Source: a virus
Virus record (IMG/VR): IMGVR_UViG_3300043313_000424
Coordinates: 1-23,720 of that record
Reading direction: 5' to 3' (one strand)
Length of the DNA: 23,720 nt
The notes beneath the pieces are model-generated. The model saw nothing but the letters and a program-made list of their open reading frames with translations, had not been told where the DNA came from and searched no databases. A program made the position numbers and the translations under genes. Below, in pieces: positions 4,115-23,245 of this stretch (position 1 is the stretch's first letter; each line of letters starts with the position of its first letter).

Positions 4115-7100
4115 CGTTTCACCTGCGTCACGCGCAGCTTGGATTGGAAGAGGTGCATGACGGGCGCGCCGCTGTCGAGCTTCACCGTCCGCAGCGAGAA
4201 GGTCAGCGACACGCCGGCAGCAGCCGAGAAGGTGCCATGCATCACGTACTTCTGTTTGGTGAAGTTGACGTTCGTGTCGGCGTCCGAGAGGCTGAAGAAC
4301 GAGCCCCCGGCGAGGGTCACTCGCCACCCGAGCGTCGAGCCTGCATCGGGGTAGACGTTATCGGCGTTGATGTAGCCCGAGACTTCGACGTTGCAGGCAG
4401 CAGCAGGCGTGATCGTGAATGAACGGATCGACGCGTTCGTGCCGTAGCCAGCGCCCGCGAAGTCGTTCGAGTCCTCGAACACGGTCGTCGCGGCCTGATC
4501 GTGAATCTGCGAGGTCTGCACGTCCACGCCGCCGACCGAAGACCAATCGTTCGAGCTGAGCGGCGCGAAGCGAATGTTCTGGATGTAGCCGCCGATCGTG
4601 GCGAACGAGCTATCGAAGTAGAAGCGCCGGCCCGGCGTGGTGTTGACCGAGCGGCGCGCGACGCCGTTCTGCAGGTAGTTCACGCGCGAGCCGTCATAGA
4701 CGATCGCGAGCACGTCGCCTGCGCTCACGGTCGTCGCGCCGGTAAGGCCGACCCCGTTCTCGTAGAACGACAAGGTGCCGTTCGCCTCGATGTAGAACGC
4801 GAAGTCGATGTTCCAGTACGCGCCGTCGGCAGCAGGGTCAGCGAACGGCGTTGTGTCGGGGTCGTTCAGCCCGACCATCAATTGGAAGTTGGTCGTGACG
4901 ACGACGAAGGAACAGTAGCCGGCGTTCTTGAAAATGTCGCGCGAGAAGACTTGGGAGTCCCAATCGTTCGAGCCGCCGCCCTTGCCCGCAGCGTTGCCCT
5001 GCACGTAGCAGTAGGTGACAGGCACGAGCACCAGATCGACTGCAGGCACGGCCATGTAGCGCACCCACGTCGATATCGATGCGTTCCAGCGATAGATGAT
5101 CCCGCTACTCGGCTGGCTCCACAGGTCGCCGTCGCGCGCACCTGTCGGCGTCGCCTCTTGATAGAAGGTCTGGACCCCTTCGCTGAAGCTCGGCGCGGCG
5201 ACCTTGTGCGCGATGACCATCGACCACGCCGAGCGCACGAGGCCGTTGACCTGCCGCAGCCTGAACAGGTAGACGCGATCGGACTTCAGGCCAGTGAGCA
5301 CGGTGCCGGTGCTCGCGCCGTCCTCGACGGTCGAGGGCCAGCCATCAGACGGCATCGGGTTCGTGACGGCCTCGATGTACTGCAGCTCGAAGTACCCGCC
5401 CTGCCGCACGCCCTCGTACTGCGTGGGGTTCCAGACGACCTTCACGCGGGTGACGATCGAGCCGTCAGAGAGAGCGACCGTGCCGGACTCGACGCCGAGG
5501 CCGAGAGGAGAGAACACGAACCACTCGAGCGGCAGATTCGTATTCGGCGCTGCGTCCTGCGCGAGGAACTGCGCAGCAGGGTCCGTGATGCTCGGGTGCG
5601 TTTCCTTCAGGCCGAGCGTAATGCCGCCCGACAGGTTGAACGTCCACAGCAGAACCTCGAATTCTTTGTTCGTCCAGCCGTAGCGCGGCAGGTTCACCGC
5701 CACCGTTTCGTACAGCTCGATCGGGTACGCCTTGAAATTCAGCGGCAGGTTCAGCGAGAGGCCCTGTCGCTGATCGCGCAGCATGACGCCGCAGACGTGC
5801 TGTGCGTGATAAAAGCTCGTCACTGCGCCGAGGGTCAGGTCGCGCGGCAGCTCTTGGCCATCGAGCACCACGTACGCCTGCGCTCGCACCTCTTTCGTCG
5901 GCGTCATCACGTAGTCGTGATCCTGATCGGCGATCGTCGGGCGATAGACGTTGACGAGTTCGGTCCGAGGCGGGCCGCTGACCGTTTCGATATCGCCTTG
6001 GCCGCTCAGCCAGCTCTCATCGATCGTGGCGACGGGTGCGCTGTAGTAGGCCGCTTTGATGCGCAGCTTGCCGCCCGCCCATGCGTACTTGCCGGCCATG
6101 GACACGACGATTTCCTGCAGCGCTTCGGCGGGGTCGCCACCGGTCGGGATCACGATGCCGCACACGTAGACCTTGCGTTGATAGGTCGTCGCCGGTGCCT
6201 GCGAGGTCGCCGGGACCGCGAACGGAATGGTCACGTCGCAGGCGTTCGCGCTCGCGATGATCAGCGGCTCGTGAATCTCGGCAGCGAGCGCTGCGCCGCC
6301 GTAGGGATAGAGCGCCCAATCGCGAGCGACCAGCGCAGGGTTCTCGGACCATGCCGTGAGGCCGCTGCGCGGGTCGAACACCTTCGCGCCTCGAATCACC
6401 GCGCTCATGGCCGGTACGCCCTGAGTGAACACGTCGGGGTCGTACTGCAGGGTGACGAGCAGGCAGGCGATGCCGGCGAAGCGGTGCGAGCTGGACACGT
6501 CGCTGATGCCGAGCGCCACCAGCTCGTTGCCGATGTTCTGATTCGGGGTGCCGAGGAAGCCGCGCACGCGCGCCTTGCTGCTCGATTGGTTCCACTGGTA
6601 GGTGCCCATGAGCTGCAGCGTTCCGCTGCCGCCTGACCAAGACACGACGTTGCCCGAGATAGTCGTCGCGACGGATCGCTCTTGCGGGAAGTCAGGCCCT
6701 TCCGGGTACACCACGTCGATCAGGTTCACGGTGCCGGGGATCGGCGGATGCGGCAGCGTGATCGAGCCCGAGGCGAGCGGCGGCGTAATGAACCCTTCCA
6801 GAATCGGCTTCGAGTTGCCATACGGCGCGTTCGTCACGTAGCCGTTCGGGTCCAGCTCTAGCAGCAGGTCGCCGAAAAAGTAGCGCTCGAAGCCATCGAT
6901 CTCGTGCCCCGCGACGGCGACGACGAAGGTGTAGAACTCTTTCTTAACTCCGTGCGTGGCCTTGTAGACGATGCCGTCCACGTTGCGCACCCGACCGTAG
7001 ACGCGCGAGCGCTGCGCGTCGGTGGTCGAGGTCATCACGAGGCGATCGCGGACGCTCTCGTTGAAGGCGTTGCGCGCTGCGCGCTTCGCTGCGCTCGCCT

Positions 7101-11124: not shown

Positions 11125-11753
11125 TCAGTCCTCGTCGTCGCGCGGTTCGCGCTTCGGGTTATGCGACTTGATCAGCAGCAGCCGCACGATAGTTTCCTCG
11201 GCGTCGGGCACGCGGTTGAACTCGAGCGCGAGCGGCAGCGCGTCCCACCGCACGCCGCCCATGCCGTCCGCAATGAAATTCCACACCCTGATGGCCTCGA
11301 GCGTGCTTGCATTCGGCTCGGGCGGGGCTTCGCCTTCCCAGACTACGCCGGCTCGGTAGTCGAGGAAGGCGAGGAGTTTTTTGCGTCGCCGTCGCGCTGC
11401 TTGTTGTACCGTGCCCATAGCTCGATCGCGTGCATGGCGATTTTCATCACGAGCTCGGGCTGATCGCCGGCCCACTCGGCGAACACGTCGGCGTCGAAGT
11501 CCTGCAGCGCATCGCTTCCGATGCTCGAGCCCAACAGGTCGGCCTCGGTGAAGCCGCGCCAATCCACCACGAGGTCGCGCAGGCGCTGATTGACCAGCGC
11601 CAGCTTCACCTTCCCGTCGCTGTCGTGGAAGCCGAGGCCTTCGACCAGATGCGGCCTGCGCACGTAGACCGCGCGACGGCGGGGCTCGTCGTCCAGCTCG
11701 AGCCATTCCCGCGAGGCGGCGCGCTGCCGCCTCAGCATGTCCTCGGGCCGCAT
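11125..11753 (-). CDS. Tail assembly chaperone, -1 frameshift product (gpGT-like, 209 aa)
   Basis: Ribosomes slipping back one base at A AAA AAC (11382-11376) read 126 residues of the G-type protein and then enter an open frame of 83 further residues ending at TGA 11127-11125. The extension begins LLAFLDYRAGVVWEGEAPPEP and ends in an acidic-basic tail (KREPRDDED). The extension has no convincing start and ribosome-binding site of its own, while its frame is open through the slip site, which is the standard gpG/gpGT organisation. In lambda the T domain binds tube subunits while the G domain binds the tape measure. The frame arithmetic was checked codon by codon. Confidence 0.87.
11330..11372 (-). 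promoter_or_regulatory. Frameshift-stimulating stem-loop
   Basis: Starting three bases after the slippery heptamer, the minus strand can fold into a long hairpin. The outer arm is TCGCCTTCC (11372-11364), pairing perfectly with GGAAGGCGA (11338-11330). After a two-base internal loop (one G-U wobble, one mismatch), GACTAC (11361-11356) pairs with GTAGTC (11346-11341) around a nine-base loop. Fifteen perfect pairs placed immediately after a slip site fit a stimulator of frameshifting. The short three-base spacer suggests that the first pairs are open in the stalled ribosome. Confidence 0.85.
11343..11753 (-). CDS. Tail assembly chaperone, unshifted product (gpG-like)
   Basis: The 136-aa product lies between tail tube and tape measure, the conserved slot of gpG. 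It starts at ATG 11753, overlapping the tube stop as TGATG. The sequence is acidic and helical (RPEDMLRRQRAASREWLEL, then a VVDWRGF segment typical of TAC proteins), with KIAMHAIELWARYNK before the frameshift site. Without frameshifting, translation continues through a short Ser/Thr-rich tail to TAG at 11343-11345. The known role of the family is to bind the tape measure and recruit tube subunits; it is normally absent from the mature virion. A longer in-frame start exists but would overlap the tube gene. Confidence 0.87.
   Translation of the reverse strand: MRPEDMLRRQRAASREWLELDDEPRRRAVYVRRPHLVEGLGFHDSDGKVKLALVNQRLRDLVVDWRGFTEADLLGSSIGSDALQDFDADVFAEWAGDQPELVMKIAMHAIELWARYNKQRDGDAKNSSPSSTTEPA
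11376..11382 (-). promoter_or_regulatory. Programmed -1 ribosomal frameshift slippery heptamer
   Basis: The minus strand reads A AAA AAC here, a canonical X XXY YYZ slippery site. The zero frame reads GCA AAA AAC (Ala124-Lys-Asn); slipping back gives AAA AAA and then CTC CTC GCC in the extension frame. It lies where tail chaperone genes conventionally shift, near the end of the G-type frame. Confidence 0.92.
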
Positions 11754-12397
11754 CAGGCCGGCAGGCGAAGGATGTAGCCGCGCACGTTGAACGAGAGCGT
11801 GCCGCTGCCGACAGCGCCTACGTCCACCGACTCGGAAGGCACCGAGGGCGTGCCGTAGCCGACTCGCACTGCGCCATCGATCAGGTGCGTTACCCGAATC
11901 GCCAGCTTCGCTGACTTGCGCGCGCTCTGCTCGCACAGGATCATCGCCGGACTCGGCGTGGTCTGCGGGATCACGTCGAACGAGAAGTCTTCAGCAGCGA
12001 GCAGGCCCGCGTCGGTCTGCCGCGTGCGATGGATCAGCGCCGTAATGTCGAGCGCCTCGGCCTCGCCGCCGCCCGTCGCGTAGGTGCGCGCTTCCGCGAC
12101 CGTGAGCCAAGTGAGCACCGGATAGAACGAGCCGCTGACCCACACGCCCATCTGCGTCGTGTCGATCCCCTGCAGCGTGAAGTTGCCGGTCGTCGGCGCA
12201 TCGATGCGGATGGCCTGTTCTTCCAGCTCCTCCATGCCGACTACGTTCTTCATGTAGCCGACCACGCCGTCGAGCTGGCCGTGAGCGGCTGCTGCAGCGA
12301 CGCCCGGGTTGGCGAGAGTCACGCCCGTGACCGGGATCGCGGCTCCGTAGGTTGCGCCGATTTCGACGCGTACGTTGCGTCCCTTGATAGCTGGCAT
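11753..12397 (-). CDS. Major tail tube protein, 214 aa
   Basis: Tube subunits stack as hexameric rings around the tape measure. Position (after the DUF3168 terminator gene and before the chaperone pair) and size point to the major tail protein. The sequence is beta-rich, with IKGRNVRVEIGATYG at 4-18, PVLTWLTVAEA at 93-103 and VDVGAVG at 191-197. ATG 12397 has a strong AAAGGGG ribosome-binding site, consistent with high expression, and is one of the few genes here preceded by a real intergenic gap. A second copy of this fold is encoded at 19306-20049 and aligns nearly without gaps. The stop overlaps the chaperone ATG. Confidence 0.87.
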   Translation of the reverse strand: MPAIKGRNVRVEIGATYGAAIPVTGVTLANPGVAAAAAHGQLDGVVGYMKNVVGMEELEEQAIRIDAPTTGNFTLQGIDTTQMGVWVSGSFYPVLTWLTVAEARTYATGGGEAEALDITALIHRTRQTDAGLLAAEDFSFDVIPQTTPSPAMILCEQSARKSAKLAIRVTHLIDGAVRVGYGTPSVPSESVDVGAVGSGTLSFNVRGYILRLPA

Positions 12398-13651: not shown

Positions 13652-14217
13652 CAGTAGAACGTCCGCAGCGGATCCAGCAGGCGAGCGAGGAAAGGCGACT
13701 CGGCGATGCGCAGCTCGGAAGCCGCCTGCGGGTGCGTGTTCCAGTAGGCGCACATGGCCCCGATGTACAGCAGGGCCGTCGCGGGCACGTCCGCAGCTGT
13801 ACTGCCCCACCCTGCCACGAAGTCAACGCGCACACGAGAACCTGACCATGCGGGCAGGCTCGGATACGCCGACGACAGCAGGCGCGCGACTCGAACCCCT
13901 GCCGGCGTGCGGATCGCCATCGGCCCGGCCAGCACCAGCGTCCAGCTCGAGCCGTTCCAGTAGCTCAGCTCGACGGACTGCACCGGGTGAACCTTGAACA
14001 GGTCCTCGTCCCCCGGCCAATCGAACAGCTCCGCGCGCCGGGTCTGCGTGATCAGGCACGAGCCCGTTTCGTGCTCGGCGCTCTCGCGCGCGGCCTTGAT
14101 CCAGATCGGCAACACGAGGTCGTTCATGGAGTGATCGATGCGCGCCATCGCCTTGGCCTGCTCGATCGACAGCGGCTCGATCGCGGGCTGAACCACCCGG
14201 TCGGTGTCGTAGATCAC
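13651..14217 (-). CDS. Head-tail connector protein (HK97 gp6 / phiE125 gp8-like), 188 aa
   Basis: GTG 14217 overlaps the stop of the exported Cys-rich gene (GTGA). The opening (IEPLSIEQAKAMARIDHSMNDLVLPIWIKAARESAEHETGSCL) is the family hallmark: a short P-x-S-x-x-x-A-K helix, then a D-x-x-x-x-D-x-x-L-x-x-x-I-x-x-A-R-E-x-x-E-x-x-T-G helix. A W-x-x-x-L-x-G-P-like strand region and VDFVAGWG-x-x-A-A-D-V-P-A (132-146) follow. The protein forms the ring below the portal. It is separated from the probable head-side genes by about 9 kb of fibre and accessory genes. Confidence 0.88.
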   Translation of the reverse strand: MIYDTDRVVQPAIEPLSIEQAKAMARIDHSMNDLVLPIWIKAARESAEHETGSCLITQTRRAELFDWPGDEDLFKVHPVQSVELSYWNGSSWTLVLAGPMAIRTPAGVRVARLLSSAYPSLPAWSGSRVRVDFVAGWGSTAADVPATALLYIGAMCAYWNTHPQAASELRIAESPFLARLLDPLRTFY

Positions 14218-14582
14218 TTGCGCGCCCCCGGGCCCGGAACGCAGACGGTCGGCTCTTGCCTGAACATCGTGCGGAAGGCTCGGCACTTGTCGCCGTCCCA
14301 GTTCGTGGTGCAGGCCGATTGCCCGCCCTCGCACATCATCCCGCCCTCGAGCCTGATCGCGTTGTACGCCGCTGCCGAGATAGGGCCGACTGAGGTGAAG
14401 ACCTTCGTACCCGGCTTCGCTGGCGGTCGGTTGTAGACCCTGCACTCCCCGCCTTCCATGACGCAGCGGCACTGCGAGTACATGTTGGTGATGCCCTCGC
14501 GGTGATCCTCTGCAGCACGCGCGCTGCGCACGCCGAACAGGACGAGCAGGCAGACCAGAATGAGAAAGCCGAAGAACTTCAT
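14214..14582 (-). CDS. Exported cysteine-rich small protein, 122 aa
   Basis: Residues 1-23 form a strong Sec signal peptide (MKFFGFLILVCLLVLFGVRSARA, with likely cleavage after ARA). The predicted mature part of about 99 residues holds seven cysteines (38, 40, 47, 84, 91, 100, 114) and looks like a disulfide-stabilised periplasmic or secreted protein. I recognise no family. ATG 14582 overlaps the G8 spike stop (ATGA) and its stop overlaps the connector GTG, so it is made with the structural genes. The lack of a lipobox near the cleavage site argues against a lipoprotein. Possible roles include inhibiting a periplasmic factor, superinfection exclusion, or supporting lysis. Confidence 0.75.
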   Translation of the reverse strand: MKFFGFLILVCLLVLFGVRSARAAEDHREGITNMYSQCRCVMEGGECRVYNRPPAKPGTKVFTSVGPISAAAYNAIRLEGGMMCEGGQSACTTNWDGDKCRAFRTMFRQEPTVCVPGPGARK

Positions 14583-17500
14583 TGCGTAGACCCGTTCACG
14601 TTGATCTTCAAAAGGCGGTTTTGCTTGCTGAACGACATGATGGGATCGGCGTCGTTATAGCCCGGTATGTCGCCGTAGTAGAGGTGAAGCCACAGCAGGC
14701 TGTTCGCCGTGTCGCGCCAGTAACGCCTCGAGGTCGGCCCGCCTGCTGCGAGCAGGTCCGCGCGGTTGAAGACCTGCGTGAAGGTGTACGGACCGCCCGG
14801 GCCGTTGATCACGCAGCTCGTGACCGGCGTCGAGGGATTGAACTCGATTCCGAGCGTGAAGTTTTGCCCCGCCACGTTGGGGTAGCCCGCGTACAACGCG
14901 ATCAGCAGCTTCGAGGGCGTCGCCGCATTCGGGAGGTCTGCTTTGATGATCCCGTTAACGAGCTTGTCTTCGACCGCCGCATGGCGCATGTTGGGATAGT
15001 TCTGGTGCGGCGCTCCGGTGTTCCAAGTGCCGACCTGAGTGACGCCATCGGCTGCGTATCGCGTGTAGTTGATCGGGCTGTTATCCCCGTAGTACACGTC
15101 GATGTTGTCGAAGCGTTCGACCTGCACGCCGACGAAGTGATACGTGTCCGGCAGGAACTTGCCGTTGAGGTTCACCGCATCGGGCGAGCTGGGCGCATAG
15201 ACCGAACCGGTCGTGCCATGCAGCAGAAACGGGTGATCGAAGACCCACCAACCGCCGTCCTGCCCCATCGACGCGAGGCCGTCAGCAGGCAGCGACATAG
15301 CGCCGCTGTTGCCCTGCGACCATGGCACAGCGATATCGCCTACGAGGTTCTTGTACGCAGCAGAGAACCCTTGGTCCGGATAGTTGTTGGCGACCATGTA
15401 GAGCGGCGGGAATCGCACGCCGTACCAACCGGGCGAGGCACCGAGCACGCAGGTGTTGGTGTCGAGCGAAAAGCCGCGCTGTACCGGGTAGAGGTAGAAG
15501 TCCCACAGGCGCATGACCTGCCCCGATTGCGTCACCAGCGGCAGGCCGTAGCGGCTCTCGAGGTAGGTGTACTGCGGCGCGGTCGGGACGAAGATCGAAT
15601 TGATCCGGTTAACCCCGTTGTTGTACGACACCATCATGTTGTTGAGGGTGTTCGGGTACGCGTCGTCCAGCGTGGTGCTGACCATCAGGGCCTGATCGAA
15701 CGCCGAGATGGCACCGTGCGACGGCGCTGCATTGCCTGAGATGGAAACGCGAATCTGGCCGATCGCGGTGTTGCTGTTCTTCACGCCCGCGCAGGTCCAA
15801 CGAACGTAGTGCGGCGCTCGAGCTTCGTTGTTGTACCAGCGCTCGCACTTCCAAAGATTCACCTTGTCGAAGTCGTTCGGTGTGGTGTCGTAGAGGTTCA
15901 GCACGCGACCCGCTTCGTAGTGGCCGTACCCGAGCCCGCCGTCCTCGTTGATCACGCGCGGCTGCGTGCGCATGTTGAACGAGACGCAGCAGGCCGCTTC
16001 GTTGTTGAAGTGCTGCAGGTTCAGGTGATTCATCGGCGCGTACTCGACGTTCCGGGACTGACCGAAGCAGCCGAACTGGTACACGTCGGTGTTGGTGTCG
16101 TCAGGGTTGAACCTCTGATCGCACGCGAACGTGTTCCAGATGCCGATGAAGGCACCGAAGACCGAGTTGTTGCGCAGGTAGTTATCGGGGCTCGTGTACC
16201 AGATGCCCGATGCGCCCGCGTCGCTGTACTCGCCGGGGTATTGCCTGCCGTAGAAGGGGTGCCGGGTGTACTGGTCGTGGTACTTGATCGGGATCTGGCC
16301 GAACCTCAGCGAGCGCACGCCGCTCACAAGGTTGCCGTCGATCACGTTGCGTCGCTCGCTGCCGTCCTCGAGGAATATGCAGTGCGTGTCGATGTAGCAG
16401 TAGACGTTTTTCTCGAGCACGAAGCCGCAGGTGCCGTGAATCGTGCTGCCCCGGTTCGAGCTGCGCGAGGTCGAACACTTGCTGATGAAGTTTTTCGTGC
16501 CGTCCACGTCGCCGAGGTACACGCCGCCCTTGTTGGTTGGGCTCAGGTACGGCGTGTAGCTGCGCATGTGCTGGTGGTCGGGGTAGCGCCCCAAGAAGCC
16601 GGCCTGACCTACGCGGTACCGCTCGACGCCCTCCATTTGGCATTCAGCGGTAAGACCCATCACCATCAGGTGCGCGCCGTAGCCGTAGGTGTTCCAGTCT
16701 GAATCGTTGGGCGCGCCGTACTTGAGCGGGTGAGTCAGCAGGCCCACGCTCGAACAGTTGTCGATGCTCGAGGCCGCGCCTGCAGCGATCGCTGACAGCA
16801 CGCGCGAGCCGAGAATCTGCTGCCCGTTCACGGTGCCGAACACGTCGTTGGGCAGGATGCCGTGATTGGTGTAGCTGAGGTTCGTCCCCGGCACCTCCTC
16901 GAGCGTCGAGCCGCCGCGAGTCGGCGGCACGAGGTATTGGATTTTTCCGTGGTGACGGTGCTGCAGGGTCGCCGTGTTGGTCGGGAAGTGGCCTGCGTCG
17001 TAGGTCGTCGCCTGACTGATCGGGATCGTCGTGCTGTTCACCACGTTCGACGCGACCGTGATCACCTCTTGCCCCCATCCCGGCAGGCGCGTCACGTCGG
17101 GGTAGCGCTGCTCGGTGCCCGTAATCAGCAGGTCTACCGTGTTGTCGCTCAGGCCCTCGTAGTAGTACTTCGAGGTGGTCACCTCGAGCTTGTCGCCCGC
17201 CTTCAGGTTCACCGGCACGCGCGAGGTGATCGAGCTGGCACCGACCGCTGCGGTATTGCCGAGCTTGAACACGGTGGTAAGCCCGCTCACGTCGCTGCAC
17301 CAGTGCCACTTGCCGCCGTTCATTACGAGGCAGCCGCGGTTGCTCTCGGGTCGCGTGTCCTGCCGAAGGCCACCGGGCTGCGGCGAGGCGACCGCGAGGT
17401 CGTTCACCCTCAGGCCTGTCGGCACCCACTCGTGCGTGACGCTGCCGCGCGGGAAGGGGTCAGCTCGAGTGCCGCAGAAGTAGGTTCCGCCGTTGACGAT

Positions 17501-17761
17501 CAAGCGCTTCGTGCGCAGCACGGTCGATACCGTGCGCGACACCTTCAGGGTGCCGTAGACCGTCACGCTGTCGTAGTTCGGGGTAAGAGGCACGTCCAGC
17601 AGAACGACGTCGCCCACGCCCACCTCGATGATCGCGCCGTCGCCTGCGCTCGCATAGAGCACCGACCACAGCAGCTCGCCGCCGGGTCCGGGGGGAGGTG
17701 GAGGCGCAGCCGCCGCACCACCGCCGCGCCGCACCGCTTTCTGCATTGCACTGCGCGTCAT
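14579..17761 (-). CDS. G8-domain, CEMIP/TMEM2-like beta-helix tail spike (candidate polysaccharide depolymerase)
   Basis: A 1060-aa protein with a basic N-terminus and a Pro/Gly linker (12-29). A G8-type domain spans about 38-150, with repeated strands, a VYGTLKVS segment and NGGTYFCGT before DPF. The centre resembles the catalytic region of the eukaryotic hyaluronidases CEMIP and TMEM2 in motif order: VGQAGFLGRYPDHQHM (384-399), IHGTCGFVLEKN (441-452), HCIFLEDGSERRN (460-472), then a P-D-N (525-527) followed by N-N and GIW (540-542). From there it continues as a right-handed beta-helix-like architecture to a beta-rich C-terminus (about 850-1060). The expected role is binding or cleaving a surface glycan. 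Whether it cleaves, and what, cannot be told from sequence. The motif comparison is from memory. Confidence 0.75.
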   Translation of the reverse strand: MTRSAMQKAVRRGGGAAAAPPPPPGPGGELLWSVLYASAGDGAIIEVGVGDVVLLDVPLTPNYDSVTVYGTLKVSRTVSTVLRTKRLIVNGGTYFCGTRADPFPRGSVTHEWVPTGLRVNDLAVASPQPGGLRQDTRPESNRGCLVMNGGKWHWCSDVSGLTTVFKLGNTAAVGASSITSRVPVNLKAGDKLEVTTSKYYYEGLSDNTVDLLITGTEQRYPDVTRLPGWGQEVITVASNVVNSTTIPISQATTYDAGHFPTNTATLQHRHHGKIQYLVPPTRGGSTLEEVPGTNLSYTNHGILPNDVFGTVNGQQILGSRVLSAIAAGAASSIDNCSSVGLLTHPLKYGAPNDSDWNTYGYGAHLMVMGLTAECQMEGVERYRVGQAGFLGRYPDHQHMRSYTPYLSPTNKGGVYLGDVDGTKNFISKCSTSRSSNRGSTIHGTCGFVLEKNVYCYIDTHCIFLEDGSERRNVIDGNLVSGVRSLRFGQIPIKYHDQYTRHPFYGRQYPGEYSDAGASGIWYTSPDNYLRNNSVFGAFIGIWNTFACDQRFNPDDTNTDVYQFGCFGQSRNVEYAPMNHLNLQHFNNEAACCVSFNMRTQPRVINEDGGLGYGHYEAGRVLNLYDTTPNDFDKVNLWKCERWYNNEARAPHYVRWTCAGVKNSNTAIGQIRVSISGNAAPSHGAISAFDQALMVSTTLDDAYPNTLNNMMVSYNNGVNRINSIFVPTAPQYTYLESRYGLPLVTQSGQVMRLWDFYLYPVQRGFSLDTNTCVLGASPGWYGVRFPPLYMVANNYPDQGFSAAYKNLVGDIAVPWSQGNSGAMSLPADGLASMGQDGGWWVFDHPFLLHGTTGSVYAPSSPDAVNLNGKFLPDTYHFVGVQVERFDNIDVYYGDNSPINYTRYAADGVTQVGTWNTGAPHQNYPNMRHAAVEDKLVNGIIKADLPNAATPSKLLIALYAGYPNVAGQNFTLGIEFNPSTPVTSCVINGPGGPYTFTQVFNRADLLAAGGPTSRRYWRDTANSLLWLHLYYGDIPGYNDADPIMSFSKQNRLLKINVNGSTQ

Positions 17762-19155
17762 GCCATCGCATCCGATTGAATGTTCTCGAACGCGCAGGTG
17801 TTCGACACGTGCAGCTTGCCGTATAGCGCCGCTTGGCTCGCGCTCGAGTAGGTGTGCACGACAGTCCAGCTGGTGCCGGCGTTCTTCGAGACTTCGAGCA
17901 CGATGTTCGTGCCTGCGCGCCTCACTCGAATCTCGTCGTTGTTCGCAGGCGCAAGCACGGTGCCGTTGAGCGCCACGGTGTTGTACTGGCCGGCGTTGGC
18001 GTAGTAGACGTTCGCCGAGCCGTCGTGCCCGTAGTAGAGCCCGTACAGGGTGCCGCGCTCAGTGACGGTCGGGTCGAGGTCGAAGCCGAATACGCCCTTG
18101 AACGGGTTGCCGTTGTCGCCGCTGATGCCGGTGATCTTGCAGCGAATGTGGCCGTCTGCGCTCGCCGCAAGTTTCTTCGTGCTCGATGCGCCGTGCGTGT
18201 CGTCCTGAATGTTCCCGCCGTTCGCAGGGTTGCCGTAGTAGTTCCAGCCTGCGGTTGCGTCGCCGCTCTCGACTACGTATGCGCCGAGGGCCGTCATGCG
18301 CACCTTCGAGGCAGCGGGCAGCACGTAGTTTTGCACCGCAGCGCTGCTGATGGACGCGACGAGGTTGCCCGCAAGGTCGCGCATCTTGTTGGTCGCGGGC
18401 GGCGTGTAGTTCAGCGTCAGCGACTCGCCATAGGCGACCGGAGGCGAAACCGTGAGATACGTGTAGATGCCGTCCACGCGGGTGTGCGCGCTGATCGTCT
18501 TCGTCGGGATCGCGAAGGCCGAGGCAGCGCTGATTGCGGGGTCCATGTTCTCGGACCACTGCAGCACGACGCTGTTCTTGTCGGTGTTCTGAACCGCGAT
18601 CAGGCTGAGCGTCGGCACGCCCGTATCGATCAGCGGCCCCGGCACGATGCCGTAGTAGTAGCGGCCGTTCTCGCGCCACGTCGTGATCGTCTGCACCTGC
18701 CCTTGCGTGTTCACCCACTGCGGGTTGTTCACCGGGTTCATGGAGGCCGCGAAGGTCGGGATGTGCGCCGGATTGCCGTCCGCGATCAGGCCGATGATCG
18801 TTTCGGTCGAGTCGAGCGCGCCCGCAGGGTTCGGCGCGAAAGCGTACTGAGCGGTGACGGCCTGCTCCGGCATCTTCAGGTAGCCGGTGTACGGAATGCT
18901 CGTGTTGAACGCGACGCTGGTCGGGAAGCCGCTCGCGCCTGCTGCTGCTGCCTGAGCTGCTGCCGCAGCGACTTGCGCGGCTGCTGCCGTCGTCTGCGCG
19001 GTGTTAGCCGTGCCCTGCGCGGTCGATGCGGCAGTGCCTGCAGCAGTCGCCGTCGCCTGCGCTGTCGTGACGCGCGGGTCCAGGTCCTGAAAGTTGCCGT
19101 CGAGTTCGGCGATCGTGAGGGCCGAGCCCTTGGTCTGTCGGAGCGTGATCGTCAT
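17758..19155 (-). CDS. Tail fibre with coiled coil, SwmB-like and lectin-like domains, 465 aa
   Basis: The N-terminus LRQTKGSALTIAELDGNF is a common attachment motif of phage fibres. Residues 27-75 form an Ala/Thr/Gln-rich heptad region likely to trimerise as a coiled coil. Residues 183-280 resemble an SwmB/Big_5-type domain (LQWSENMDP, then YLTVSPPVAYGESLTLNYTPP, then RDLAGN). Residues 285-460 form a beta sandwich like a concanavalin-type lectin (HIRCKITG, FKGVFGFDLDP, GTNIVLEVSKNAGTSWTVV). The start overlaps the polyproline gene stop (ATGA) and its own stop overlaps the G8 spike ATG, suggesting that spike and fibre are made together. It is likely a receptor- or matrix-binding fibre. Confidence 0.83.
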   Translation of the reverse strand: MTITLRQTKGSALTIAELDGNFQDLDPRVTTAQATATAAGTAASTAQGTANTAQTTAAAAQVAAAAAQAAAAGASGFPTSVAFNTSIPYTGYLKMPEQAVTAQYAFAPNPAGALDSTETIIGLIADGNPAHIPTFAASMNPVNNPQWVNTQGQVQTITTWRENGRYYYGIVPGPLIDTGVPTLSLIAVQNTDKNSVVLQWSENMDPAISAASAFAIPTKTISAHTRVDGIYTYLTVSPPVAYGESLTLNYTPPATNKMRDLAGNLVASISSAAVQNYVLPAASKVRMTALGAYVVESGDATAGWNYYGNPANGGNIQDDTHGASSTKKLAASADGHIRCKITGISGDNGNPFKGVFGFDLDPTVTERGTLYGLYYGHDGSANVYYANAGQYNTVALNGTVLAPANNDEIRVRRAGTNIVLEVSKNAGTSWTVVHTYSSASQAALYGKLHVSNTCAFENIQSDAMA

Positions 19156-19316
19156 TGCACGTAGTCCTGTTCCATGTAGTCGCCTTCAACGAAGTGCGGA
19201 TTCGTCACCGGAGGAGGAGGCGGCGGGGGCGGCGGCGGTGGCGGGGGAGGAGGAGGCGGCGGCGGCGGGCGCGGCGGCTTTTTCTTCTCGGGCGGGGGTG
19301 CAGGGTCAGGCGACAT
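19152..19316 (-). CDS. Small polyproline protein with C-terminal aromatic tag, 54 aa
   Basis: ATG 19316 lies inside the last codons of the tube paralogue, in the third unit of its 15-base repeat, and the stop overlaps the fibre ATG (ATGA). The product has an N-terminal P/E/K-rich part, then 20 consecutive prolines (residues 17-36), then an 18-residue tag ending GDYMEQDYVQ. The tag resembles the T-Y-V repeats ending the tube paralogue (aromatic and Val/Met spaced by about five residues). A stiff proline rod with a terminal docking peptide is my reading, as an inference. It is short, so the coding call rests on exact stop/start overlaps at both ends and on the related tag. Confidence 0.7.
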   Translation of the reverse strand: MSPDPAPPPEKKKPPRPPPPPPPPPPPPPPPPPPPPVTNPHFVEGDYMEQDYVQ

Positions 19317-19350
19317 AGGTTGCGGCGACGTAGGTTGGGTCAACGTAGGT
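19306..19350 (-). repeat. Three tandem 15-base units encoding T-Y-V-x-x tags
   Basis: On the minus strand, ACCTACGTTGACCCA, ACCTACGTCGCCGCA and ACCTATGTCGCCTGA follow one another at 19350-19306. They encode TYVDP, TYVAA and TYVA-stop. The TAC-to-TAT change in the third unit creates the ATG of the next gene in another frame. Confidence 0.85.
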
Positions 19351-20049
19351 GGCACCCGGCGCAGGCGGCGGCGGGGGCGGTGGGGGCGGCGCAGGCGGCG
19401 CGCTGATGCCGGGGATCGCGAGGGCAAAGCCGTCGATCGACCACGCTCGAGCCTGAGTGCCGACCGCGCCGAGCTGCACGTCCTCGCCGACGAGCCCGGG
19501 CTGCGCGCGACAGAGCCGCACAAAGCCGCCCTTGTGCGTGATCCGCACGATCAGGCCGAACCCCTGAATCGCGGCGTTCTCGCAGACCAGATGCGCGGCG
19601 CTTCCCTCCTCGAACGCGAGGAGGTTCATGGCGAGGGTCTGTGCGCCGAGCAGGCCTCGCCCTCGGTTGCGCTGCTGAAAGTCGCGAATCGTGGTGCGGT
19701 CGATCGGCGCAGCATCCGGCACGGTGATCGTGTAGCTCGTGCTCTCGGCGATCGTCAGCCACGTGAGCACCGGCACCACGAACCCCGAGGCGTAGGTGTC
19801 GTACGGCGTGGTGTTCAGGCCTGCGAGCACGAAGCCGTTCGTCGTCGCGCTGCCGACTTGAAAGGCCTGTCCCTCGATTTGAGGCATGCCGGCCACGCCG
19901 TTGAAGTAGCCGGCGCTGAAGTTGGCGAGGCCGTGCGAATTCGCGATGATCGTGGGCCAGTACCCCTGAGGCACCACCTGAACTGCGATCGGAGTGCCAT
20001 ATGTGGCACCAACCTCGATTCGGACGTTGCGGCCCTTGATGACGGCCAC
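19306..20049 (-). CDS. Second tail-tube-like protein with polyproline stalk and TYV tags, 247 aa
   Basis: GTG 20049 follows the upstream stop by two codon-lengths of spacer, with GGAG about ten bases before it. The first 212 residues align almost without gaps to the major tube protein at 11753-12397: IKGRNVR at 4-10, PVLTWLT at 93-99 and GAVG at 194-197 fall at the same residue numbers in both. I estimate about one third identity by hand. The copy adds a C-terminal extension: a nine-proline run (221-229), then three T-Y-V units ending ATYVDPTYVAATYVA. It is embedded among fibre genes rather than next to the chaperones. It may cap or decorate the tail, or replace some tube subunits; function is inference. 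Confidence 0.85.
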   Translation of the reverse strand: MAVIKGRNVRIEVGATYGTPIAVQVVPQGYWPTIIANSHGLANFSAGYFNGVAGMPQIEGQAFQVGSATTNGFVLAGLNTTPYDTYASGFVVPVLTWLTIAESTSYTITVPDAAPIDRTTIRDFQQRNRGRGLLGAQTLAMNLLAFEEGSAAHLVCENAAIQGFGLIVRITHKGGFVRLCRAQPGLVGEDVQLGAVGTQARAWSIDGFALAIPGISAPPAPPPPPPPPPAPGATYVDPTYVAATYVA

Positions 20050-20051
20050 GC

Positions 20052-20363
20052 TCAGCGCTCCGTCATCTGAAGGTACAGCGTGCGATGGTCGCTGCGCGGC
20101 GGCGTCGCCGTCGTAATGAAGTCGAACGTGATCGAGGCGAGCGCGCCCGGAGTGCCGTCCTTCACCCATGCCGTCAGCACGCCGCCCGATCGAGTCGGCG
20201 CTGAGTGCTGCACAAGGCCACCGCTTAGCGTCACGGTGAACGAGGCGATCGAGTCGCCGATCAGCGCCAGCCAGTCGGTCAGGTCAACCGAGTAATCGAG
20301 CTTCGCGCTCGGGTCTTTCGGGATCGTCGGCCGCGATGGCACGCTCAGGTCGTAGCTTTCCAT
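20052..20363 (-). CDS. Fibre-tail adaptor-like phage protein, 103 aa
   Basis: ATG 20363 overlaps the long fibre stop by 19 bases, with AGGAAAGG upstream. The sequence IPKDPSAKLDYSVDLTDWLALIGDSIASFTVTLSGG followed by SGGVLTAWVKDGTPGALASITFDFITTATPPRSDHRTLYLQM matches a widespread phage family (K-D-P-x-A-x-L-D-Y-x-x-D-W, then a G-G/D-G-x-x-G core, then an R-x-D-x-R-T-L strand), often annotated as a phage fibre-tail adaptor. It commonly follows a gene ending in VPAE-like repeats, as here. A small beta-sandwich connecting fibre and virion is the likely role. Confidence 0.75.
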   Translation of the reverse strand: MESYDLSVPSRPTIPKDPSAKLDYSVDLTDWLALIGDSIASFTVTLSGGLVQHSAPTRSGGVLTAWVKDGTPGALASITFDFITTATPPRSDHRTLYLQMTER

Positions 20364-23245
20364 CGCCTTTCCTCAGCCCATACCCGCAAGGTGCGGGACT
20401 CGGCCGTTATAGCGTACAGGCGCTGCTCGGAGGGCACGCGCCAAGTGCGTAGAGCGCTGACGATCAGCGGGAACGCATCGGCCTGAATCGCCGAGTCGCC
20501 CGCCACCACTGCGTCGATCGCCTGCGCGTACATGATCGCGCGCTGCGTCGCCTGATCGCCCGCAGCGACGATATCGGCAGCAGCCGCGACCAGCACCGCA
20601 GCCGTGATGCTCGAGTCGCCCGCGATCGCCGCCTCGATGGCCAGAACCGCCGCGACCATGCGCTGAATCGCCGAGTCGCCGGCAGTCGCCGCCTCGTTCG
20701 CGCTCAGCTCGAGCACCGCCGTGCGAGCTGCAGAGTCGCCGGCAGTCGCCGAGTCCGTCGCGACCTTCACCGTCGCGCCTGCGCTGATCCCCGAATCCGA
20801 GGCCGCTGCGGCGTCGGATGCCGCGCTCGCCCCTATCCCTTGGCCAGATGCCTGATCGCCGGCTGTAGCCGCATCCTGCGCGGCGGCGGCAGTCGTGCGC
20901 AGCGCCGCACCGCTGTCCCCTGCAGCAGCCGAGTCGGTCGCGCTCATGTTCGAGCCGCCGCCCTGCGCGCTGATCGCCAAGTCGCCTGCAGCAGCAGAGT
21001 CGGTACCGACCGCGCCGAGCGCCGCTTGGCTCGAGCTGCTGTCGCCTGCTGCAGCTGGATCCGTTGCCGCAGCGCCGAATGCCCCCTGCTGCGCCGCAGC
21101 ATCGCTCGCGCTGGCGCTGTCGCTCGCGCTGAGGCTCGCCGGACCGATCGCTCGAGTGGCTGAGTCGGAAGCCGCAGCCGCGTCGCTCGCTGCTGCGTTC
21201 GTCGCCGCTGCTGAGCTGGCCGCATCGCTCGCCGCTGTCGCGTCGCTCGCTGCTGCCTGCTGCGCGCGCACCGTCGCCGCGCTGTCGCCTGCCGCTGCCG
21301 CGTCAGTCGCGAGCCCGATGCCGGTTTCGAGAGAGGTCGCCGAGTCGCCGGCTGCTGCCGCATCCGTCGCTGCGCCGACCCCGATGCGAAGCTGCGCGGC
21401 TGAGTCGCCCGCCGCCGCCGCGTCGCTGGCGATCAGGCCACCCGCTGCCGCCGAGGTCGAGCTATCGCCAGCCGCCGCGCTGTCGCTCGCCGTGCTGCCG
21501 AAGGTCGCTGCGGTCGCCGCGCTATCGCTCGCCGCCGCCGAATCGCTTGCCAGCACGAAGCCGGTTTCGAGTGCGGTCGCGCTATCCGTCGCGCCGGCTG
21601 AGTCAGCCGCGCTCGCCGCATACGGAGCTGCGCCAGTGCTCCCGCTGTCGCCGGCTGCTGCAGAGTCCGAGGCGGCGACGGTCCCCGTTTCGAGCGAGGT
21701 CGCCGAATCACCTGCCGCCGCCGAGTCAGGTGCCGCCAGAGGGCGCGTCGCCTGCGTCGCGCCTGAATCCCCCGCAGCCGCACTGTCCGTCGCCGCCACG
21801 GGGCGCGTAGCCTGTGTGGCCGCGCTGTCGCCGGATGCCGCTGAGTCGGTGGCCGCAGCAGGTCGCGTCGCCTGAGTGCTCGCGCCGTCTGCTGCTGCTG
21901 CTGCGTCGCTCGCGCTCGCGCTGTACGTCGCGCCGCCCGCCGCGCCTCGAGTCGTGAACTGCCAATCGTCGTAGACCGAGCCGGTGCTGCCGGAGAACAT
22001 GCCCGCATAGTTCACGCCGTCGAGGTCGGTCGCCTGCACAGGCCCGAGGCGCGCGACGCCATCGACCAGCACCGTGATGTAGTTGTCGGCGTCAACGTCT
22101 ACCTCGAGCAGGTATTCCACCGAGGCGTCCATCGCCCAACCGCCGTCGTACTCGGTCGCCAGTTGCGTGCCGCTCGCGCTGACGAAGCTGACTAGCTGGA
22201 TCTTCCCGAACCAGAAGCGCGCGCGCAGGTGCGTGTAGTAGTCCCACACCCGGAAGATCAGGCCGGCGTCCGTGACGGGCTTGATCTTCGCGCCCATGCG
22301 GAAGTCTTTGCTGCGGCCAACCGGAATCTTGTTGATCGCGAGGTTGGCGGAGGGCACGGCCTTGTTGCTCGTGATCTGGAACGGGTTGCCGCTGAACGAC
22401 CCGTCGCCCTCCCAAGGCGTGCCGTCGAAGGACGAATTGGCGATCGGCGACTCATCGGCGCGGTTGAAGTTGTCGGCGCGGATCGTCGTCGCTGCGCCTC
22501 CGGGCCCGGCCTGCGTTCCCGAGTCGCCTGCGGCTGCTGAGTCGCTGACCGCCTCGTAGCCGACCTCGAGGTGCGCCGCAGAGTCGCCTGCGCTCGCGCT
22601 CTCGGTCGCGGTCAGGTTGTAGATGTTCGCTGCGGTGTAGTCGAGCTGGATTTTTGCCGCGCCACCGTTGCCGCCTGTGCGCGTGCCGTTCGATCGAGTC
22701 GGGCCACCACCGCCGCCGCCCGGGGTCGCGCCTGCAGTCGCGTTCGCATTGACTGCGCCCGCGCCACCGCTGCCGCCTCCGGTGGGGGCAGTCGCGCCAG
22801 TGACGCTGGTCGCGGCGACGCCGTTCGCGCTGGTGCCTGCTGAGCTGCCGCCGCCCGCGCCGCTCGCCCCGTTGCTGAACCCTGCGCCACCGGTGCGCGT
22901 CGCAGTCGCGCCGACGCCTGCTGCAGCGCCTGCGCCGCCCGTGGTGCCGTTCGCCGGCACGCTCGCACCTGCGCGAGCCATGACGGTCGAGGCATCGCGG
23001 AACCAGCAGTCGCTCGCAGTCGTGCCCGGTATGCCGCCTGCGGGGATCTGTACGGTTTCAGCGACCCCCGGCACGACCGTCAGGGTCGCGATCGAGAGCC
23101 CGCCGCCGCCGCCGCCCGCACCGTTGCCGGTGGTCGATCGAGTGCCACCGCCGCCGCCCGGTCCCCAACAGGTGACCGTGACCGACGTAACCCCTGCAGG
23201 CGGGGTCCACGAGGTCGTTCCCGCGTTGAGGGTTTCAGTGGTCAT
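20345..23245 (-). CDS. Long glycine-rich repetitive fibre with lectin-like domain, 966 aa
   Basis: Residues 1-200 are a phage glycine-rich domain starting SWTPPAGVTSVTVTCWGPGGGGG and containing several Gly runs. Residues 208-247 hold two units of a D-S-A-A-A-G-D-S repeat. Residues 250-435 form a concanavalin/LamG-like beta sandwich (FNRADESPI, then YLLEVDVDADNYITVLVDG, then VYDDWQF). Residues 441-928 are about 24 repeats of roughly 20 residues with core D-S-A-A-A-G-D-S-A. The C-terminus (929-966) has three short repeats of the type TWRVPSEQR, LYAITAESR, TLRVWAEER, a known phage ending. It is probably an elongated surface fibre or decoration. No good ribosome-binding site precedes ATG 23245; the region upstream can form a strong hairpin. 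Confidence 0.85.
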   Translation of the reverse strand: MTTETLNAGTTSWTPPAGVTSVTVTCWGPGGGGGTRSTTGNGAGGGGGGLSIATLTVVPGVAETVQIPAGGIPGTTASDCWFRDASTVMARAGASVPANGTTGGAGAAAGVGATATRTGGAGFSNGASGAGGGSSAGTSANGVAATSVTGATAPTGGGSGGAGAVNANATAGATPGGGGGGPTRSNGTRTGGNGGAAKIQLDYTAANIYNLTATESASAGDSAAHLEVGYEAVSDSAAAGDSGTQAGPGGAATTIRADNFNRADESPIANSSFDGTPWEGDGSFSGNPFQITSNKAVPSANLAINKIPVGRSKDFRMGAKIKPVTDAGLIFRVWDYYTHLRARFWFGKIQLVSFVSASGTQLATEYDGGWAMDASVEYLLEVDVDADNYITVLVDGVARLGPVQATDLDGVNYAGMFSGSTGSVYDDWQFTTRGAAGGATYSASASDAAAAADGASTQATRPAAATDSAASGDSAATQATRPVAATDSAAAGDSGATQATRPLAAPDSAAAGDSATSLETGTVAASDSAAAGDSGSTGAAPYAASAADSAGATDSATALETGFVLASDSAAASDSAATAATFGSTASDSAAAGDSSTSAAAGGLIASDAAAAGDSAAQLRIGVGAATDAAAAGDSATSLETGIGLATDAAAAGDSAATVRAQQAAASDATAASDAASSAAATNAAASDAAAASDSATRAIGPASLSASDSASASDAAAQQGAFGAAATDPAAAGDSSSSQAALGAVGTDSAAAGDLAISAQGGGSNMSATDSAAAGDSGAALRTTAAAAQDAATAGDQASGQGIGASAASDAAAASDSGISAGATVKVATDSATAGDSAARTAVLELSANEAATAGDSAIQRMVAAVLAIEAAIAGDSSITAAVLVAAAADIVAAGDQATQRAIMYAQAIDAVVAGDSAIQADAFPLIVSALRTWRVPSEQRLYAITAESRTLRVWAEERRWKATT
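20462..21925 (-). repeat. About 24 coding tandem repeats of ~60 bases (20 residues)
   Basis: This stretch of the 966-aa fibre repeats x-x-D-S-A-A-A-G-D-S-A plus nine to ten variable residues. The rhythm is about 20 residues per unit, with some 19-22-residue units. Wobble positions vary, so repeats are clear in protein and weaker in DNA. The last four or five units drift to a more hydrophobic composition. Confidence 0.85.
22505..22624 (-). repeat. Two outlying copies of the 20-residue repeat
   Basis: Residues 208-247 of the long fibre read T-E-S-A-S-A-G-D-S-A and V-S-D-S-A-A-A-G-D-S-G with ten-residue spacers, the same unit as in the main array. The lectin-like domain lies between these two and the other 24, as if inserted in an originally continuous array. 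Confidence 0.75.

Follow-up and report, generated by a model that had tools for sequence, protein, structure and literature searches.

The protein encoded at 14579-17761 on the minus strand of the 23.7-kb IMG/VR virus record IMGVR_UViG_3300043313_000424 (the window, that is, the whole analyzed stretch of 23,720 nucleotides) has a core of the CEMIP/TMEM2 family, and the preferred reading of this protein, to which we assign a probability of about 0.6, is that of a siphophage virion tail spike that is built on a G8 plus beta-helix scaffold and acts on a host polysaccharide. The assignment of the core to the CEMIP/TMEM2 family and fold is close to certain, and the placement of the product in the virion as a spike is highly probable. 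Phage spikes are a known kind of protein; the CEMIP/TMEM2 scaffold is represented in no PHROG (the spike matched zero of these families), and a tblastn search with the spike detected no copy of its core in 50,697 catalogued phage genomes. Among the papers searched, none joins a G8 domain with a tail spike. The CEMIP/TMEM2-type phage spike is a real, uncommon finding and contributes a candidate family of depolymerases or receptor-binding proteins with members in podo-, sipho- and T4-type phages.

The CEMIP/TMEM2 core of the probable spike

The spike ORF starts with ATG and encodes 1060 amino acids. Every motif quoted in the original prediction is present in it, in the same order: GRYPDHQH (residues 391-398), IHGTCG (441-446), HCIFLEDGSERRN (460-472) and SPDNYLRNN...GIW (524-542). 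The features of the gene are as follows:

14579..17761, minus strand: CEMIP/TMEM2-family (G8 + beta-helix) spike protein, 1060 aa (Pfam, PDB sequence and fold searches)
17681..17761, minus strand: N-terminal 27 residues, basic and then poly-Ala/Pro, a putative attachment peptide (sequence, model)
17450..17641, minus strand: G8 domain match, residues 41-104 (Pfam PF10162)
16124..16681, minus strand: CEMIP beta-helix domain, residues 361-546 (Pfam PF24606)
16166..16672, minus strand: stretch with 12 invariant polar or aromatic residues, a candidate ligand or active site (20-sequence alignment)
14582..15139, minus strand: C-terminal beta-rich region, residues 875-1060 (sequence, model)

The hmmscan match of the spike to CEMIP_beta-hel (PF24606; E=2e-33, 116.4 bits against a Pfam cut-off of 27.3) is far above chance. 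For the window spike taken alone, the predicted G8-like N-terminal domain is borderline: PF10162 has a cut-off of 22.9 bits, and the spike scores 22.8 bits in hmmscan and 25.9 bits, above the cut-off, in a six-frame search. Each of the five phage relatives described below has a G8 match above this threshold. Among PDB sequences, only the human TMEM2 ectodomain (8c6i) gives a significant match, with E=5e-11 for the single protein and E=5e-66 for a ten-sequence family profile.

An AlphaFold2 model of the window spike, for which an alignment with its phage and bacterial relatives served as input, has a mean pLDDT of 57.8 and a pTM of 0.61; the G8 and helix parts are mostly well predicted, unlike the C-terminal parts, residues 726-878 are unreliable, and residues 1-27, with a pLDDT of ~30, are probably disordered. 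Foldseek ranked TMEM2 8c6i at the top (5e-20), followed by the K1 capsule lyase and the phi297 and AP22 tailspikes (~3e-5), and the TM-scores between the window spike model and TMEM2 are just 0.3-0.4 across the full chain. For the model of the homolog from contig L005 (pLDDT 68.8), TMEM2 is again the top match (9e-26), the two models having most alignment rows in common and hence not being fully independent. An ordinary tailspike or pectate-lyase fold was rejected given that TMEM2 outranks the tailspikes for both models; by Foldseek E-value, TMEM2 leads by ~15 orders of magnitude, and a G8 domain is present. Pfam, the PDB sequence profile and the fold search agree on the predicted family.

The spike shares with TMEM2 and CEMIP (KIAA1199) a G8 domain that opens a continuous right-handed beta-helix, as well as the motifs GRYPxHxH, HGTxG, HCxFxEDGxExxN and PxN..GIW; unlike in TMEM2, neither a transmembrane nor a signal segment is apparent in the spike, and its gene lies in a tail-gene cluster. 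Classical tailspike depolymerases (K1 lyase 7w1c, phi297 gp61 4ru5, AP22 gp54 4y9v, KP32 gp38) have the right-handed beta-helix and the tail-gene context in common with the spike; they are not known to contain G8 or the CEMIP motifs. In an alignment of the core from 20 sequences (5 phage, 14 bacterial and human), H364, Q386, Y393, H396, H398, R437, H442, E465, E469, N472, W521 and N532 (spike numbering) are invariant in 20 of 20. Many of these residues are located on or beside strands of successive turns in the AlphaFold2 model (395-398, 439-442, 460-464) and might make up one site; judging from their conservation, the twelve residues are a candidate site to bind or cleave a host surface glycan.

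Gene neighborhood and relatives in other viruses

The window is a siphophage late region that encodes, according to Pfam and PHROGs, a tape measure protein, a major tail protein (MTP), a head-tail adaptor and a central tail fiber. The order on the minus strand is 20345-23245, a GP4 gp77-like adaptor, an MTP-like gene, the fiber/adaptor protein P0002, the spike and a head-tail connector region, with the spike encoded inside the structural gene cluster alongside the following fiber/adaptor genes:

20052..20363, minus strand: GP4 gp77-like fiber-tail adaptor (Pfam PF23148, E=1e-15)
19306..20169, minus strand: second major-tail-protein-like gene, phrog_584 (PHROGs; comparison with contig L006); the true start is probably near 20050
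17758..19155, minus strand: fiber/adaptor protein P0002, 465 aa (sequence searches)

The stop of P0002 and the start of the spike overlap by four bases (ATGA). P0002 consists of a conserved N-terminal fiber peptide, an Ala-rich coiled coil, an Ig-like segment and a C-terminal domain that is also present in another phage protein. The N-terminal peptide, MTITLRQTKGSALTIAELDGNFQDLDPR, is 65-79% identical to the starts of fiber-like proteins of other phages, and some of the proteins that share it have weak scores against tail-collar or whisker families. Directly 3' of the spike, again with a four-base overlap, 14214-14582 (minus strand) encodes a Cys-containing protein of 122 aa that probably has a signal peptide and that has no Pfam match. 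The 966-aa product of 20345-23245 (minus strand) combines a glycine-rich domain, a globular middle part and many degenerate ASDSAAAGDSA-type repeats, and had zero matches among the 50,697 phage genomes. Within the window, phrog_584 was matched twice, at 19306-20169 and at 11753-12397 (both minus strand), and the former gene, which is part of the spike module, may have arisen by duplication of a tube protein and taken on an attachment role.

A first scan of viral contigs with the single spike protein as the query found nothing; later scans, with profiles and the L005 protein as queries, retrieved five relatives. These are proteins with both domains, G8 and CEMIP_beta-hel, encoded in five IMG/VR contigs that carry podo-, sipho- and T4-type genes:

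L005: P22-type portal
L006: phrog_12 portal; siphophage
L007: T4-type portal and terminase
L037 and L038: phrog_332-type portals

The L005 spike shares 64% identity with that of L037 despite the different portal types of the two contigs, which suggests that the spike gene was exchanged between phages. In L006, the MTP-like gene (41% identity), the adaptor (37% over 133 aa) and the spike follow in the same order as overlapping genes. This repeated arrangement, together with the adaptor that carries the fiber peptide and overlaps the spike, supports a virion tail spike, in line with the original prediction of a phage spike. The L005 spike can be considered a tail protein because of an insert at residues ~207-310 that is 44-55% identical to tail-fiber proteins of Rhizobium, Sinorhizobium and Leptospira phages. 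The insert is a NASPGVVTWTSHGL-type domain. The L005 protein encoded upstream (4452-6329) contains a stretch that resembles it, as does, by visual inspection, the C-terminal part of the L006 spike.

The fiber protein P0002, encoded just upstream, would carry the spike, which probably docks by a short N-terminal peptide. Many phage depolymerases act as second receptor-binding proteins and are attached to an adaptor through a short conserved peptide (PMC6872550); the disordered, basic N-terminus of the spike and the adaptor gene directly upstream fit this peptide-on-adaptor layout, and by analogy with the short N-terminal attachment peptides of these proteins, residues 1-27 may have an attachment role.

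Inspection of the sequences for a signal-peptide or lipoprotein N-terminus revealed none in the window spike or in the L005, L006 and L037 proteins. The L007 protein keeps a signal peptide, so the phage copies need not all be virion parts. In this T4-type contig, the signal-peptide G8 protein and a small lipoprotein are encoded at L007:7745-12247, on the strand opposite to the portal and terminase, and are possible secreted auxiliary genes.

Bacterial relatives and origin

Secreted bacterial proteins with G8 and CEMIP_beta-hel domains, from Vitreoscilla, Croceibacterium, Burkholderiales and Planctomycetota, have the domain order and the invariant residues of the spike, with up to 38% identity over 214 aa. 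Many of the bacterial G8 proteins end, as the spike does, with a W-D-T-A-N motif (the spike C-terminus is YWRDTANSLLWLHLYYG, a motif common to it and its bacterial relatives). Unlike the spike, they have a lipoprotein or signal-peptide N-terminus and chromosomal or plasmid neighbors of non-phage type. Given these N-termini and the ordinary chromosomal neighbors, a prophage origin of the matches in bacterial genome contigs was rejected. Such proteins are rare, being found in 4 of 274 genomes of the one class that was sampled.

In the phylogenetic tree, four phage proteins form a cluster that is not fully supported (89/83), L007 joins a pair of Planctomycetota proteins (100/98) and L038 sits elsewhere on a long branch, a topology that lends no support to a single origin for all phage copies. 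The phage-bearing group does not include human TMEM2, and although the respective fork is weak (79/90), direct gene exchange with animals is disfavored. The predicted link to animal hyaluronidases is an indirect one: the phage proteins cluster with G8 proteins of bacteria, and the connection appears to go via the secreted bacterial proteins rather than through direct exchange. Most likely, the spike gene was acquired from secreted bacterial G8 proteins.

Ligand, cleavage and the hyaluronan question

The original prediction read the motif set as an indication of action on hyaluronan, and this part is not supported. Two 2023 papers found human TMEM2 without hyaluronidase activity (PMC10206443, PMC10276149); the upper limit of kcat is ~1e-5 per min, and an active site could not be confidently assigned (PMC10206443). 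The substitutions that were reported to abolish TMEM2 activity (R265C, D273N and D286N) are all in lectin-like domain 1, which sits inside the helix. The family profile is colinear with chain residues 49-166, 340-369 and 397-756 of TMEM2 (8c6i) and skips 167-339, the insertion that forms this domain and is missing from the phage spike. By arithmetic on the construct described in PMC10206443 (106-1383, 1301 chain residues), and assuming that it is tagged in front, chain 167-339 corresponds to TMEM2 residues ~249-421. In the construct numbering, R265, D273 and D286, along with mouse A303, are within the missing insertion, and mouse H248 is at its edge (chain 166). None of the 10 family members in the spike alignment contains a lectin-like (GG/POMGNT1-type) Pfam domain. 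With the lectin insert missing and human TMEM2 inactive, family membership, secure as it is for the core, does not predict a hyaluronan substrate, and the hyaluronidase label of the spike is not supported and should go. It is therefore highly improbable that the spike is a genuine phage hyaluronidase with hyaluronan as its substrate, even with a core homologous to CEMIP/TMEM2 and with the precedent of phages of hyaluronan-capsulated streptococci, which carry other hyaluronidases (PMC13113925); besides, a hyaluronan-capsulated host would be unlikely for a GC-rich phage. The streptococcal enzymes (HylP, PL16) are phage-encoded and beta-helical, like the spike, and act on capsule; in the literature as cited in PMC13113925, they are triple-stranded beta-helix proteins of another family, and no hyaluronidases of this type were found among the sequence or fold matches of the spike.

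Under the preferred reading, the helix with its invariant His/Arg/Glu/Asn set would be the glycan-recognizing part that grips the host exopolysaccharide or capsule, and the helix region would probably cleave the glycan, opening a path to the cell surface. The spike seems somewhat better described as a depolymerase than as a pure binder, the invariant polar residues being only suggestive with regard to polysaccharide cleavage. The scaffold may instead be a lectin because human TMEM2 was inactive in both studies, in one of which no active site was assignable either; the CEMIP-type helix of the virion spike would then bind the host polysaccharide non-catalytically, and another protein, if any, would cut, with P0002 and the 20345-23245 product, which resemble further fiber-type parts, as neighbors. 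We consider such a lectin rather unlikely, given that the invariance of His, Arg and Glu from phage to human exceeds what the binding of differing glycans should need and that the next-best fold matches are depolymerase tailspikes. Still less probable is a non-virion enzyme, the product of an auxiliary gene of host origin, that is freed at lysis and degrades matrix: the bacterial relatives are secreted and the L007 protein combines a signal peptide with Planctomycetota affinity, but the window spike, with no apparent signal peptide, overlaps a fiber gene in a late structural cluster, L006 has a conserved version of the module, and the L005 copy holds a phage tail-fiber domain.

Returning to the depolymerase reading of the virion spike, a tentative extension, which we would not favor at present, is that these spikes form an uncatalogued class of phage depolymerases with a minimal CEMIP/TMEM2 core, in which the His/Arg/Glu cluster is catalytic, as it would be in the human proteins as well. 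If true, this would locate the CEMIP/TMEM2 active site; as natural lectin-free homologs, the phage spikes lend themselves to finding out if the CEMIP/TMEM2 helix is an enzyme in itself.

A G8-like N-terminus is also present in UZZ64504.1 of Curvibacter phage PCA1 (16.6 bits, under the cut-off), the gene of which is directly 3' of a tail-fiber gene, with a one-base overlap; unlike the spike, this protein lacks the CEMIP helix motifs. The gene (L049:305-3250) comes from a cultured phage, the host of which is a Hydra symbiont.
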